Shown: in pieces, positions 5,925 to 64,000 of the stretch | How positions within the stretch are numbered: the first letter of the stretch is position 1 | Layout: every line of letters begins with the position of its first letter | From: Bettongia penicillata ogilbyi | Taxonomy: Eukaryota; Chordata; Mammalia; Diprotodontia; Potoroidae | DNA length: 64,000 bases | Assembly (NCBI GenBank): GCA_023548195.1 | Contig: JAJHZJ010000532.1 | Coordinates: 1,506,725 to 1,570,724, forward strand | Reading direction: 5' to 3' | Made by a program: the position numbers and the translations under genes | The notes under the pieces: model-generated | Told to the model about the DNA's origin: nothing | What the model saw: the letters and a program-made list of their open reading frames with translations, nothing else | Databases searched by the model: none

Positions 5925-6085
5925 TTTCTGTGTCACAGATCCCTTTGGTAGTTTGGTAAAGCCTGGACACCTCAAAATGATGCTTTAAAATGTATAAATA
6001 CATAGGATGACAAAGGAAGCCAATTATACTGAAATATAATTATTAAAAAAATTAGGTTCACAAACTGATGAGAACCTCTATTCTA
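5925..6085. repeat. Old dispersed repeat, DNA-transposon-like
   Basis: Segments such as GATCCCTTTGGTAGTTTGG, TAAATACATAGGATGACAAA and CAATTATACTGAAATATAAT match a repeat pattern I recognise as common in mammals but cannot name securely. Confidence 0.4.
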
Positions 6086-6276
6086 AATCCTCGTGGGCAC
6101 CAGCTATATGCGTAATACTTTTGTAAAGTTTAATTGCTGATTTTGTCTATTGTATAATGTCTATATATAATAGATGACTATATATGTCATTTCACCCTTT
6201 CCCCTCCAGAATGAACCCTGTCTTGTGACAAAAAAAAAAAATAAAATAAAATAAATTTTCTTTTCTCATTCCACAG

Positions 6277-6478
6277 GTACCACCATCTCTGAGGGCACTT
6301 AATTAAGGCCAGCCAATGGAAGAGCTGAACTTGTCTTGGAGAAAGGTCATATTATCTCATAATATAGTATAGGAAATAGAAGCAGTAGTAATAACTCTTC
6401 TGCACGGACCCAGTGAGAGACATGTCCCTTTACATTTCTGACTCATTTGTGAGTCCAGACCTCAGCAATCCCTTTGAG
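6277..6478 (+). CDS. Candidate alternative upstream first coding exon of SCAMP1 (coding part 6422-6478)
   Basis: A strong acceptor (TTCTTTTCTCATTCCACAG) ends at 6276 and a consensus donor GAG|GTAAGA lies at 6479. Between them an ATG at 6422 opens exactly 57 nt in phase 0, encoding MSLYISDSFVSPDLSNPFE. This aligns without gaps to canonical exon 1 (MSDFDSNPFADPDLNNPFK) with 10 of 19 residues identical. In the last eight codons most differences are synonymous (PDL and NPF kept). Length, phase, orientation and donor all fit splicing to exon 2. One NPF motif (residues 16-18) is kept; the first has become DSF. The ATG has G at -3. An 18-codon upstream ORF starts at 6315 in the putative leader. An acceptor upstream implies a further 5' exon; alternatively transcription starts between 6277 and 6421. 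I infer an alternative N-terminus of SCAMP1; expression is unproven and I know of no description of it. Confidence 0.6.
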
Positions 6479-7257
6479 GTAAGATAAATAAATTCCCCCT
6501 TCTCCTTAATGATTAATTCTGTTTACTGAGTATTGGTTGTACCCTGAAGCAGTGTACACAATGTGAAATTAACTTACAGCCTCTTCTCAGACATCTTACA
6601 ATGTGAATTGGACAGATAAGTGGTAAAGAAACATGGACACAGCTTTAGTAACAATTGGTTTAAAAACACTCTCAAAGATCAGGGATATAGTAGCTGAAGA
6701 GTTGATTTTGGTTATGCATAGAAGTTTTACTTTCAATATTGTTCAGTGTTTTGTGGTTTCTTAATTATAAATTACTGCACGTTTGCTCTGAATCACTTCT
6801 GAGGGAAAGCTGCCTACAACCTACATCTATAATGTTATTATCTTCAATAAGCTTTTGAAACCCCCTCCAGGCAAACTAAGTGTGCTCACTGTAACTCCTG
6901 AAATTTTGTGTATGTTGTTTCCCTCTCATTTTCTCCAGTTACTCAAATTCTACTCATATTTTGGTCCCTTCTTCTCCATAAAGCCTTCAAAAGCCATTCC
7001 TATCTATTGTGTTGTCTTCTACCATGTAATTCCTAAAGCACTTATTTCCTATTAGTCATTTGACAATTAATCCAGTACTGCCTTGGGAGATTTCAAGCAC
7101 TGTTGCATTTGTCTCAAACCTGAAAATGAAAAGTCTTTGCAAACTACATTACAGAGTATATAATTATTGTTTTTGATATACAGAACAGAAATACTAATTT
7201 CAGCTCATACTTAGAGATTGCTTTACTGCTTACATGGTGCTACCCTTTCAGTAATTC

Positions 7258-7447
7258 TGTGAAGACTGGAAGATCTGGGTTCAAATCCAGCCTCAGACAC
7301 CAGTTGTATGACCTTGAGCAAGTCACTTAACCTTGATTTGCCTTAATCTGCTGGAGAAGGAAATTGCATACTACTCTGGTATCTTTGCCAGGGAACCTCC
7401 AAGGACAGCATAAGCATGAAGAGCTGGACACAACTGAACAAATTATT
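7258..7447 (+). repeat. tRNA-derived SINE with RTE-type tail, 5'-truncated
   Basis: CTGGGTTCAAATCCAGCCTC and GACCTTGAGCAAGTCACTTA, the GCTGGAGAAGGAAATTGC motif and the tail GGACACAACTGAACAAATTA are the sense counterpart of the element at 4744-4995. Confidence 0.85.
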
Positions 7448-10518: not shown

Positions 10519-11084
10519 GGAAGTAGCCATTTTTGGGAGGTCTTTCCAGGATGACCCCTGGGGTAACTCCAGGGAGCCTCCCGAGGAGAGCCTGTACCTG
10601 GGTTTCCACTTCTCCATCTTTTGGAGACGACCCCGAGGGCCAGAAAAACTCAGCAGCTGAGAGCGATTTTAAGGTGGACTCTAGGGGAGGGGGTCGTCTC
10701 CCCTTCTCCCTGGGGAGATTGCCACGTCATTACACCCCATCATCGTTTACCGCTACTGACGACCCCAGGACCCGGCAGTGCGTTTTAACCATTCACCGCC
10801 CCTTCCCCCCAGGGAGGCAGGGAGGGGCAGAGGGGCAGGGAGGAGTCTCCCTCCACCTGGCCTACAGGTGAGCCCGCCGTGTCACACCTGCTTCCTGTCG
10901 CCGGCACCGTTCAACCAGGCTACGGATAAGGCCCCACGATCCAATCGCGAACCCCGTCCCTTCCGGGGCTGAGCCCCTTCCCTGCTCCCTCCCTCCGCGC
11001 TCCCATCCCCATTCCCGACTGAGCTCCCGCGAAAACCCGGAGCGGCGGAGCAGCGCCCAGGACGGGCAGGCGCCCCGGGCGCAG

Positions 11085-11122
11085 CGCGCATGCTCAGTAG
11101 CTGGGCCCGCTGGGTCGCCAAT
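11085..11122. promoter_or_regulatory. NRF1-like site and CCAAT box
   Basis: CGCGCATGCTCA (11085-11096) matches the NRF1 consensus YGCGCAYGCGCR with one mismatch. CCAAT at 11118-11122 is a possible NF-Y site. Both lie 165-200 bp upstream of the SCAMP1 ATG, where core promoter elements are expected. Confidence 0.5.
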
Positions 11123-11184
11123 AGGAGGCCGTCGCGCCGGCCGGGATCGGCTCCGCGGCGGCGGCGACGTGAGCGCGCAAGGGG

Positions 11185-11211
11185 GGCGGCGGCGGCGGCG
11201 GCGGCGGCGGC
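11185..11211 (+). repeat. (GGC)9 trinucleotide repeat, probably in the SCAMP1 5' UTR
   Basis: Nine perfect GGC units are followed by ATC and further interrupted GGC units up to about 11240, 75-100 bp before the start codon. Depending on the transcription start, the tract would be transcribed as a GC-rich leader. Confidence 0.9.
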
Positions 11212-11286
11212 ATCGGCGGCAGCCTCGGCGGCGGCATCTCCCTGTCTGTGCCCCTGGGCCCTCCGCTGGCCGACGCCGCGAGCGAG

Positions 11287-11343
11287 ATGTCGGATTTCGA
11301 CAGCAACCCGTTCGCGGACCCGGATCTCAACAACCCCTTCAAG
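11287..11343 (+). CDS. SCAMP1: SCAMP1 coding exon 1 (residues 1-19)
   Basis: This 57-nt coding segment translates to MSDFDSNPFADPDLNNPFK and ends on a whole codon (phase 0) at a consensus donor, AAG|GTGAGC. It carries two NPF motifs, at residues 7-9 and 16-18. NPF tripeptides in the cytosolic N-terminus of SCAMPs bind EH-domain endocytic proteins of the Eps15/intersectin type (family knowledge). The start ATG is in fair Kozak context (G at -3, T at +4) and matches the N-terminus known for SCAMP1. The exon sits inside a CpG island and its codons are GC-rich, unlike the later exons. Confidence 0.97.
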
Positions 11344-11705
11344 GTGAGCGGCCTGGCCGGCGTTCCCTCCCCCGCCCCCCCGCCGGCCCCCGGCGGACGC
11401 GGCTCCGCGGGGACCCCGGCACAAGTTTCGGTGCTCGATCCCGCGCCCTCCCGGGCGGGGGCAGGCCCGCGGGGGGCTCAGCCTCCTCGCGGCCCCGGGG
11501 GTTTGCTGGCGTTTAGGGGAGAGGGGTCGTGACCCCCCGAGGAGGGGCACCCGAGGGGGTGTGTGGAGGAGCAGAAAATGGCCAAGGGGGAGGGGCAGCG
11601 GGGGGTGCCGGGGTGAGGAGCCCAGGGGCGGGTTGTCATGGGGACCCGGGCGGGTGTCAGCGGGGGAGGGCGGGGAGCGGCTGCGTGGGAGCGGTGGGGA
11701 AGTGT

Positions 11706-11729
11706 GGAGGAGGAGGAGGAGGAGGAGGA
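11706..11729 (+). repeat. (GGA)8 microsatellite
   Basis: Eight perfect GGA units lie in the first few hundred bases of intron 1, within the CpG island. Confidence 0.9.
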
Positions 11730-11875
11730 GGGATGACAGGTAGTGCGTGGTGCGGGGAGAAGGGGCTTTTGTGTTTGCTGCTGCCTGGCACCGACTCTTC
11801 AGCCTTCTGCCATTGGGGGGGGCATCCTGAATCCTGACTTTAAGATAAAAGTTGATGAAATAAGTATTTTAAAAA

Positions 11876-11911
11876 CCCACCCCCGGACCCCCCCGCACCC
11901 CCCGCACCCCC
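11876..11911 (-). other. C-run cluster, potential G-quadruplex on the minus strand
   Basis: C runs of 3, 5, 7, 6 and 5 bases are separated by 1-3 nt (11876-78, 11880-84, 11888-94, 11898-903, 11907-11). The minus strand therefore reads as a strong G-quadruplex motif with very short loops, and the plus strand could form an i-motif. Confidence 0.6.
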
Positions 11912-14094
11912 ACCGCAAGTGAGTGAGGTCTTCACGGCGCCTCACCGGCCCGTGCCAGGTGAAACGGCGAGAACACTTTCCGAACTCTTGGCTTGGTGCG
12001 TCACCGCAGGCTCGTGGTCCTCCTCCTGCCCACCCCCTTGCCATGCTGGCTGAGGAGCAGCCAGGGAAGCCCCTTAGTTTTTTCAGCGAGCTGATAGCGT
12101 TTTATTTCATGGCAGCTGATGTCTCCTGGCTCTGTTTCCCGAAGGAGTGCTGCTGCTGTGTAGTGAAAGTGAATCCGACCCCTTTCCCTAGTCTGTTTAA
12201 CTTAGTTGTCCCTTGATTTCTCCGGGGTAATCTGTGTGCCTTTGCAATGACAGCGTGATTTTGCAAGTTTCTGTTGAGCTTTTTTTGTTTACATTCATGC
12301 TGATTTTATCTTGAATTAGGCATTTCCGAAGAAAAAATTCACTTTATGTTTAAGCCAAGGAATCCGTAACATTTATGTCGTCTTTAAATACAGCACTATT
12401 AATTGAGTTTCTAGCTCTTGTTTATGATTTGCGAGCTTTTTTCCCCGTTTAATATATTCCTCCCTAGATAATGTAGTAACATTAATATAATTTAGAAAAA
12501 AATTGTTCTTAACCACATGAAGTTATTTCAAAGTCTTCAGAAAAAGAATGTGAACATTTCTTAGTCTGTGACCTTTCCTGATACTGATTTAGAGAATTGA
12601 GAAGTGCGTCCTCCAACAGTTTTATTTCAGAGTTTTTTCTGCCTTTTCTCATAGGTTTGTTTGCTCCATCTAATGCATCTTTTCAGTTTGTCAGTAAATT
12701 TCTGTTGCATAGCCTACTGCTTTGTCATTATATTTTGCTCTGATTCTTTCCCCTTTTGACATTCAAACTTCTCAGTAATACCATGCCAAGGTAGTTTTAA
12801 GTAGTACCATTACATGTGGCATAGTTCAGTCATTTTAAAACTTAGCTACATTGTTACATTGTTACTATTGTTATTATTGTTAATACAAGGTAACCAGTTA
12901 ACCAAGGTAACATAGCTACTAAGTGTCAAGTGTCCAGAGGTCACTGATTGTTTAAGCTCAGAAAATGGTTAATATGTCATATGAGACAATTTATGTTAAA
13001 GTAAGACTTTTAGTTATTAGTTCAGGATCTTAATTTAGAACATTTTTACTTATATCTTCAATTTTCCACTCTTTTCATCTACATATCTTTTGCTCTTTCC
13101 AATATACTCCCACTATATTTGTCTTTTTACTCCTTTAACATTTCTTTAGTCATTTTTTCTTTTCCCAAAATTCTATATCCTCATTATATTTTTGTTCCTT
13201 TTTTTTAACTTTGGGTTTCTGTCCGCAGTTATTCATTTCTTAGAGCTCCCACTACTTAATCTAGGTGGGAACTAAACAAAATGTTCCCAGATCAATTTTC
13301 AGAACAAGTTTCCTTTCCAAACCTTACGATTCTTTCAGCCTTTGAATCCTTGCACAAAAGTTTTTGCTTTGAGATTTTCAGCCTCTTAATTACTTATTAC
13401 CTATTATGTATATTAAATATATTTTGTTTTCTTTTGTTCTTTTTTTTTTTTACTTTTTCTCAAATTAGTATTTCTATAACTGCTTTTCCCGTATGTTCAG
13501 AAGGTCTTGACAAGTATGATAAGTACTTGTTTGAATGTTGGCAATCAATGCAATTTCTGATATCTGGCTCAGTTTTTGCTTAGAGAATGTGGCAGTAACA
13601 TTGTGACATTAAAATTTTCAGGTTATTGTAAAATCACTCAGTTACTTTGATGATATAGTTCCTGTTTATATGATTCAGGTTTACAAAGTGAATTCTCCAA
13701 CACCCTTTATGTGCATACAGTTAGGAATTGTTTTAATTATGCTTGTTTATCATAAATGAAAATTTTGTCTTTAGACACATCCTGTGCTTAAGATTGGTGG
13801 CAACCTCAGGTACCCACCACAGAGAATAGAAGCCTTGCCACAGTGCTGCTGCCTCTCTCCCCAACCAATTCCTTAACTTGCCGGCATAGTGAGGCTAATC
13901 AGATAAATGATGCCAATGTTCTGGGAAAGGGTGTATCAAGCTACTCCACCATGGCTCTATGAATTCTGGTATTTTGAACTAAAATATCTCTTCTTGGGCA
14001 CCATTCAACTATGTTGTCTCCTCTTACAAGGTAAATTGCCCAGTGGTCAGCATTGTGCTCGGCGTATAATAAATGTTTGTTGTTCCATTGAACC

Positions 14095-43770: not shown

Positions 43771-43848
43771 GATCCATCAGTTACACAGGTGACAAGAAAT
43801 ATGCCACCAGGGCTTGATGAATATAATCCATTTTCTGATTCTAGAACG
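43771..43848 (+). CDS. SCAMP1: SCAMP1 coding exon 2 (residues 20-45)
   Basis: This 78-nt, phase 0-0 exon is preceded by the acceptor TCTGTTTCAG and followed by the donor ACG|GTAAGA. It encodes [14 protein letters not shown] followed by [12 protein letters not shown]. The third NPF motif lies at residues 38-40. As I recall the human protein, the only difference in this exon is Met for Val at residue 30. Because the exon begins on a whole codon, any 57-nt, phase-0 first exon, including the candidate at 6422-6478, can splice to it in frame. Confidence 0.97.
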
Positions 43849-52801: not shown

Positions 52802-52900
52802 GCACCACCGGGAAATGTGAAAATGCCTAATGTACCTAGTACACAACCAGCGATAATGAAGCCAACTGAAGAACCCTCAGCTTATACACAAATTGCAAAG
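52802..52900 (+). CDS. SCAMP1: SCAMP1 coding exon 3 (residues 46-78)
   Basis: This 99-nt, phase 0-0 exon has the acceptor TTCTTGTTAG and the donor AAG|GTTAGT. It encodes the proline-rich linker [18 protein letters not shown] followed by [15 protein letters not shown]. The composition (7 Pro in 33 residues) suggests an unstructured cytosolic linker between the NPF region and the coiled coil. It aligns without gaps to the mammalian SCAMP1 sequence I recall, with small substitutions (for example APPGN where I remember PPPGG), as expected for a marsupial orthologue. Confidence 0.96.
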
Positions 52901-53675: not shown

Positions 53676-53784
53676 GAGCATGCATTGGCCCAAGCTGAAC
53701 TGCTTAAGCGTCAGGAAGAGCTTGAAAGAAAAGCAGCAGAATTAGATCGCCGGGAAAGAGAAATGCAGAGCCTCAATCAACATG
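53676..53784 (+). CDS. SCAMP1: SCAMP1 coding exon 4 (residues 79-114 plus first base of codon 115), coiled coil
   Basis: This 109-nt exon follows the acceptor TTTTTCTTTAG. It encodes a highly charged heptad-like helix, [19 protein letters not shown] then [17 protein letters not shown], the cytosolic coiled-coil segment of SCAMP1-3. The exon ends in phase 1. The Gly codon is completed by GC from exon 5, giving QHGRKNNW as in the family. The end shown uses the upstream donor G|GTGGTA. A second donor, G|GTATGC, lies 3 nt downstream, so the true end could be 53787 with one extra glycine (QHGGRKNNW). The upstream site is preferred because it reproduces the protein length I recall. Confidence 0.93.
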
Positions 53785-55034: not shown

Positions 55035-55163
55035 GCAGAAAAAATAATTGGCCGCCTCTTCCTGGGAATTTTCCAGTGGGACCTTGTTTCTATCAGGATT
55101 TTTCTGTAGACATCCCTGTAGAATTTCAGAAGACAGTAAAGATTATGTACTACTTGTGGATGT
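55035..55163 (+). CDS. SCAMP1: SCAMP1 coding exon 5 (codons 115-158, split at both ends), pre-membrane signature and start of span 1
   Basis: This 129-nt exon follows the acceptor CATTTGTAG and is followed by the donor TGT|GTGAGT. It contributes two bases of Gly115, then residues 116-157 and the first base of Phe158. It contains [20 protein letters not shown] and [22 protein letters not shown]. The WPPLP...PCFYQDF...IPVE block is the signature conserved across SCAMPs immediately before the first transmembrane helix, which starts near residue 152 and continues into exon 6. Confidence 0.96.
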
Positions 55164-63893: not shown

Positions 63894-64000
63894 TCCATGC
63901 CGTAACACTGTTCCTCAATATCTTTGGATGCCTGGCTTGGTTTTGTGTTGAGCCTGGACGAGGGGTTGATTTCGGATTGAGTATCCTCTGGTTCATGCTT
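63894..64000 (+). CDS. SCAMP1: SCAMP1 coding exon 6, cut by window end (residues 158-193)
   Basis: The acceptor TGATTTTACAG precedes the exon. Its first two bases complete Phe158, followed by [18 protein letters not shown] (the rest of membrane span 1), the short loop EPGRGVD and the start of span 2, [10 protein letters not shown], where the window ends in frame. In the family topology the loop between spans 1 and 2 faces the lumen or cell exterior. The loop differs from the human DSARAVD that I recall, while the two membrane helices are conserved. Confidence 0.95.

Follow-up and report, generated by a model that had tools for sequence, protein, structure and literature searches.

The SCAMP1 gene of Bettongia penicillata ogilbyi appears to possess a second, upstream version of its first coding exon. 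Within the window, that is, the whole 64-kb stretch of DNA that was analysed, positions 6422-6478 most probably represent a real, ancient exon which is paralogous to SCAMP1 exon 1 and which was maintained as coding sequence over some or all of its history. Judging from the sequence, we consider it rather probable that this ancient duplicate of the first coding exon has been kept as an alternative N-terminal exon of the gene.

The 5' part of SCAMP1 lies on the plus strand of the window. The canonical first coding exon (11287-11343, plus strand) encodes MSDFDSNPFADPDLNNPFK, ends with the donor AAG|GTGAGC and is located inside a CpG island at 10651-12200. It is followed on the same strand by exon 2 (43771-43848; 26 residues), which is the common splice partner of both N-terminal exons, exon 3 (52802-52900), exon 4 (53676-53784), exon 5 (55035-55163) and exon 6 (63894-64000), the last of which is truncated where the window stops. 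Further along the same contig, to about position 95319 in window numbering, later SCAMP1 exons are matched as well. When joined, exons 2-6 form an open frame, which both the canonical and the alternative exon enter in phase 0. The 193-residue product of the alternative exon and exons 2-6 matches the SCAMP family (Pfam PF04144) with 89.7 bits at a cut-off of 27; this match covers residues 117-193 and thus lies outside the alternative exon. No RNA family matched the window at gathering scores. AP3B1, the neighbour of SCAMP1 in human, gave a single meaningless match (E 1.4) against 204 kb around the gene. A strong acceptor-like site (score 11.0) is present at 10813, within the CpG island and 474 nt before the canonical ATG, which is unexpected for a promoter-proximal first exon.

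The coding part of the alternative exon (6422-6478, plus strand) encodes MSLYISDSFVSPDLSNPFE in 19 codons and ends in phase 0. Its ATG at 6422 has a purine at -3 and opens exactly 57 nt up to the donor GAG|GTAAGA at 6478/6479 (GTAAGA at 6479-6484, plus strand). With assumed splice-site frequency tables, this donor scores 9.97 and ranks 34th among the 10,554 GT dinucleotides on the plus strand of the 204 kb. Two acceptor-like sites of near-equal strength precede this one ATG, 67 nt apart: that at 6277 scores 12.0 (rank 29 of 14,552 AG on the same strand and in the same 204 kb), and that at 6210 scores 12.1 (rank 25). Such a combination is infrequent; among the 46 donors of at least 9.9 in the 204 kb, only two, the alternative exon included, have an acceptor of at least 11.9 located 60-300 nt upstream. 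The exon therefore probably extends over 6277-6478 (202 nt), with 6277-6421 (plus strand) as its probable 5'UTR part, or, with 6210 as the acceptor, over 6210-6478 (269 nt), with 6210-6276 (plus strand) as a possible extra 5' part. Upstream of the ATG, there is a short open reading frame (6316-6372), and an in-frame stop ends at 6394.

The initial annotation, which had been made from the letters of the window, described an exon block at 6277-6478 with a strong acceptor, an ATG opening exactly 57 nt and a GAG|GTAAGA donor, placed 4.8 kb upstream of the CpG-island exon and sharing with it length, phase 0, strand and donor position. All of these properties were recovered, including the donor end at 6478, with the exception of the 5' edge, which is not fixed at 6277 since an acceptor of equal strength is located at 6210. 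The same annotation proposed an ancient duplication used as an alternative first exon. Paralogy and deep divergence stand, but the term first exon does not, because the presence of a splice acceptor makes this a first coding exon only. The two strong acceptor-like sites would require an upstream non-coding leader exon, so that an alternative first exon in the strict sense is doubtful.

By the criteria applied here, no CpG island lies between -41350 and 10651, and a TATA-like stretch near 6163 was spotted by eye only. A GC- and CpG-rich block at -41649 (L007:8351-8650), 48 kb upstream of the exon, was rejected as a promoter, as its sequence looks like the 5' end of a LINE-1 element. The acceptor-like site at 10813 also allows a different use of the exon: spliced into a longer 5' leader together with acceptor 10813 and the canonical exon, its frame would act as an upstream open reading frame on the canonical message. 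We regard this as improbable, as it leaves unexplained why the 19 residues match exon 1 from end to end with mostly silent differences. The site at 10813 could bring the canonical exon into the same message, and it is chiefly on this account that exclusive use of one of the two exons is not automatic.

The case for an alternative N-terminal exon begins with its resemblance to canonical exon 1. Aligned gap-free, the two exons share 10 of 19 residues and 33 of 57 bases, and across the PDLxNPF codons (12-18) four of the five base differences are silent. The gap-free alignment, the nucleotide identity of about 58% and the mostly synonymous differences in PDLxNPF, all read by hand in the initial annotation, were thereby reproduced. 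With BLOSUM62, the alternative peptide scores 53 against the canonical 19 residues, whose self-score is 107. On both strands of the window, 47 sites combine an ATG, 57 open nucleotides and a GT, and the best of them beyond the two exons scores 7.

That an unrelated sequence resembles exon 1 by chance is hardly credible. The one result in its favour is an unaided tblastn search of SCAMP1 against the 64-kb window, in which the alternative exon reached an E of only 0.18, a value that leaves its exact coincidence with exon ends out of account; it was yet the best match beyond the known exons. On the other side, none of 300 simulated 64-kb sequences (order-3 Markov) reached 53, the top score being 23. 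Among 407,888 ungapped 19-codon frames in the 204 kb, extrapolation of the score tail gives an expectation of 0.002 frames at 53 or above, counted before an ATG, the exact length or a donor is demanded. A nucleotide comparison of 6101-6900 with 10901-11700 points in the same direction: its best match, 6407-6483 to 11272-11348, is 77 nt long at 61% identity, with an E of 0.002 for these two stretches of 800 nt, and is centred on the exon, which it exceeds by 15 nt on the 5' side and by 5 nt on the 3' side.

The differences between the two exons, 24 of 57 bases, form a silent-heavy pattern. By the Nei-Gojobori method, 10 of 10.8 silent sites changed (pS 0.92) and 14 of 46.2 replacement sites (pN 0.30), a comparison of 57 bases with about 11 silent sites in one genome, made on a match that was selected for being noticeable. 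We also simulated neutral decay to 24 differences with 10,000 runs in each of three settings, starting from the canonical exon in two of them and from the alternative exon in one. At least 10 residues were kept in 0.61%, 0.47% and 0.13% of runs, and in 0.10%, 0.16% and 0.04% when an ATG and the lack of a stop were also required. A limit of this test is that the alternative and canonical exons also differ in base composition, with third-position GC at 10 vs 17 of 19 and CpG at 0 vs 6. The proposal that the protein was under selection is supported by the codon pattern and the simulations. It is improbable, slightly more so than the upstream reading frame, that the exon was copied and then decayed neutrally ever since: a nucleotide identity of just 58% would fit such a history, but neutral decay rarely preserves this many residues, and the splice signals are intact.

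Coding constraint appears to have acted during part of the life of the alternative exon, at an undated time, and this pattern does not separate past from present constraint. Past selection alone would be enough for the silent-heavy codon pattern, and hence a duplicated first coding exon may have been long used and selected but be silent now in this species, having stayed intact by chance or because the loss was recent. This explanation, to which we give a minor but real share of probability, agrees with the absence of a nearby upstream CpG island and with the lack of transcript or protein support in protein records clustered at 90% identity. It has to account, however, for an ATG, a frame, a donor and two acceptor-like sites that are all still intact and strong.

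Protein records were searched with residues 1-45 of the joined isoform. The alternative N-terminus occurs in none of the best 56 of 58 matches (length range 186-591), and in none of the four matches to the 45-residue piece in the length range 25-79. As the database is clustered at 90% identity, a full-length isoform, with 9 of its roughly 338 residues changed, would be merged into a canonical cluster, so this negative result says little. Among the 56 matches listed, 45 carry a canonical-type 19-mer, and the 11 without it score at most 10 against the alternative peptide. A coelacanth model (P0046), in which DPSV is preceded by 19 non-canonical residues, was considered as a relative and rejected, as it scores 1 against the alternative peptide, with 3 of 19 residues identical. 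The initial annotation knew of no description of the exon; likewise, none of a SCAMP1 alternative first exon or of homologous exons was found in the open-licence literature. One study of testis in that literature names Scamp1 in gene lists only, as far as its text was accessible.

By the one genome search made, the alternative exon is single-copy: against the 3.39-Gb genome from which it comes, and with very common words passed over, the 202-nt block gave a single match. None of the repeats detected within the 204 kb overlaps 6049-7262. An origin of the exon from a transposon was rejected on these two results. Just 5' of the exon, a 55-nt piece at 5994-6048 has one repeat in the 204 kb (84%) and is possibly part of an old dispersed element. 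No third copy of SCAMP1 exon 1 was found in the 204 kb around the gene.

For comparison within the family, we used the loci that we take to be SCAMP2 and SCAMP3, named here by their N-termini. In the same genome, SCAMP2 exon 1 encodes MSAFDTNPFADPVDVNPFQ and likewise has 57 nt and a GT donor, which makes length and phase features of the exon family. It scores 66 against canonical SCAMP1 exon 1 and 34 against the alternative exon. No second exon copy was found at SCAMP2 in 20 kb, including 9.4 kb upstream of exon 1, and no equivalent exon at SCAMP3 in 10 kb, including 7.9 kb upstream of exon 1. The closest relative of the alternative exon thus appears to be SCAMP1 exon 1. The scores of SCAMP2 and the lack of a second copy near SCAMP2 or SCAMP3 place the duplication most simply after the SCAMP1/SCAMP2 split; in this simplest order, the two genes would have separated first, the exon would then have been duplicated within SCAMP1, and its faster change would have followed.

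Transcription of the alternative N-terminus could have left a fossil in the form of a SCAMP1 retrocopy that carries it. Such a retrocopy was sought with the 193-residue product as query, and none was present among the 26 genome matches. Residue 1 is reached by only two of these matches: one is the alternative exon, the other a pseudogene resembling SCAMP2 (L023). The latter (G000:C410:1069213-1069620, minus strand) is a processed copy with stops that retains the 19-residue N-terminus. Another match (L016, G000:C591:9942516-9942911, minus strand) is a SCAMP3-like copy poor in introns, whose matched stretch holds an open frame of 166 residues; it may be a retrogene.

If the alternative exon is used, transcripts would begin at an upstream promoter, enter the exon at 6277 or 6210 and splice from 6478 to the start of exon 2 (43771), with the canonical exon being skipped. 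As the canonical exon is the promoter-proximal first exon in the CpG island, the choice of promoter would set the N-terminus. The canonical product carries NPF-A-D and NPF-K-D, together with NPF-S-D in exon 2, and the corresponding positions of the alternative product read DSF, NPF-E-D and NPF-S-D; the two NPF motifs instead of three that had been predicted, with DSF in place of the first, were counted correctly. The alternative isoform would thus lose the first NPF and have the second changed from NPF-K-D to NPF-E-D.

Both changes may affect the choice of binding partners. Fewer NPF motifs would weaken multivalent binding to EH domains of the Eps15/intersectin type, and the acidic context of NPF-E-D would favour the recycling proteins EHD1-4, whose EH domains are positively charged. 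According to the accessible parts of the published reports, the EH domain of EHD1 has a preference for NPF with acidic residues on its flanks (PMC13282721), and the acidic-NPF preference of EHD-type EH domains finds agreement in PMC3570524 and PMC6524969. SCAMP1 was described to bind gamma-synergin through NPF, and the nematode pair was reported not to interact (PMC3570524). By its letters, the alternative SCAMP1 N-terminus may resemble the EHD1 ligands MICAL-L1, Rabenosyn-5 and Rab11-FIP2, in which acidic residues come after NPF (PMC13282721, as far as that text was available), since its NPF would precede E and D. MICAL-L1 has six acidic residues in that place, and the alternative N-terminus has only two, with PSVTQ next. 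A broader reading, which we hold as tentative and unlikely in full, is that of an ancient promoter-driven switch in which SCAMP1 trades multivalent NPF binding of the Eps15/intersectin type for binding of the EHD type, so that, in certain cell types, this tetraspan protein would leave endocytic for recycling traffic. Some vertebrates would then have conserved the exon, and in the others it would be lost or lack annotation.

Compared with the canonical SCAMP1 N-terminus of the SCAMP family (Pfam PF04144), the alternative one has exons 2 onward in common and keeps the PDLxNPF core, but differs at 9 of 19 residues, in DSF for the first NPF and in NPF-E-D for NPF-K-D. Varied NPF content has reached the family by another route as well, as SCAMP5 is described, in the portion of the source available, as being without the NPF-bearing N-terminal segment (PMC4235465). 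Unlike SCAMP5, which is a separate gene without that segment, SCAMP1 would have one exon swapped within it. SCAMP4 likewise is not known to carry an NPF-bearing N-terminal segment.

The arrangement resembles substitutions of tandem duplicated exons, of which 236 human events, most of them ancient, have been reported, 40 of these N-terminal and above expectation (Martinez-Gomez et al. 2022, PMC9741552, as given in the accessible text); SCAMP has no occurrence in its main text. As in the N-terminal events of that study, homologous tandem exons in one gene would, in the putative SCAMP1 case, swap a homologous N-terminal stretch. The two SCAMP1 exons are adjacent and homologous, have the same length, phase and strand, are provided with splice sites, and show coding constraint between the copies, as judged in one genome and at few sites. 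The pair would therefore belong to the described class of homologous exons swapped at protein ends.

If the alternative exon is used, a well-studied trafficking protein would have an isoform, absent from the searches made, that is altered exactly in the part binding EH domains. Such an isoform would provide a natural test of how the number and context of NPF motifs influence the choice of EH partners. As this case further suggests, 19 codons can suffice for a duplicated coding exon to remain recognisable once its silent sites are close to saturation.
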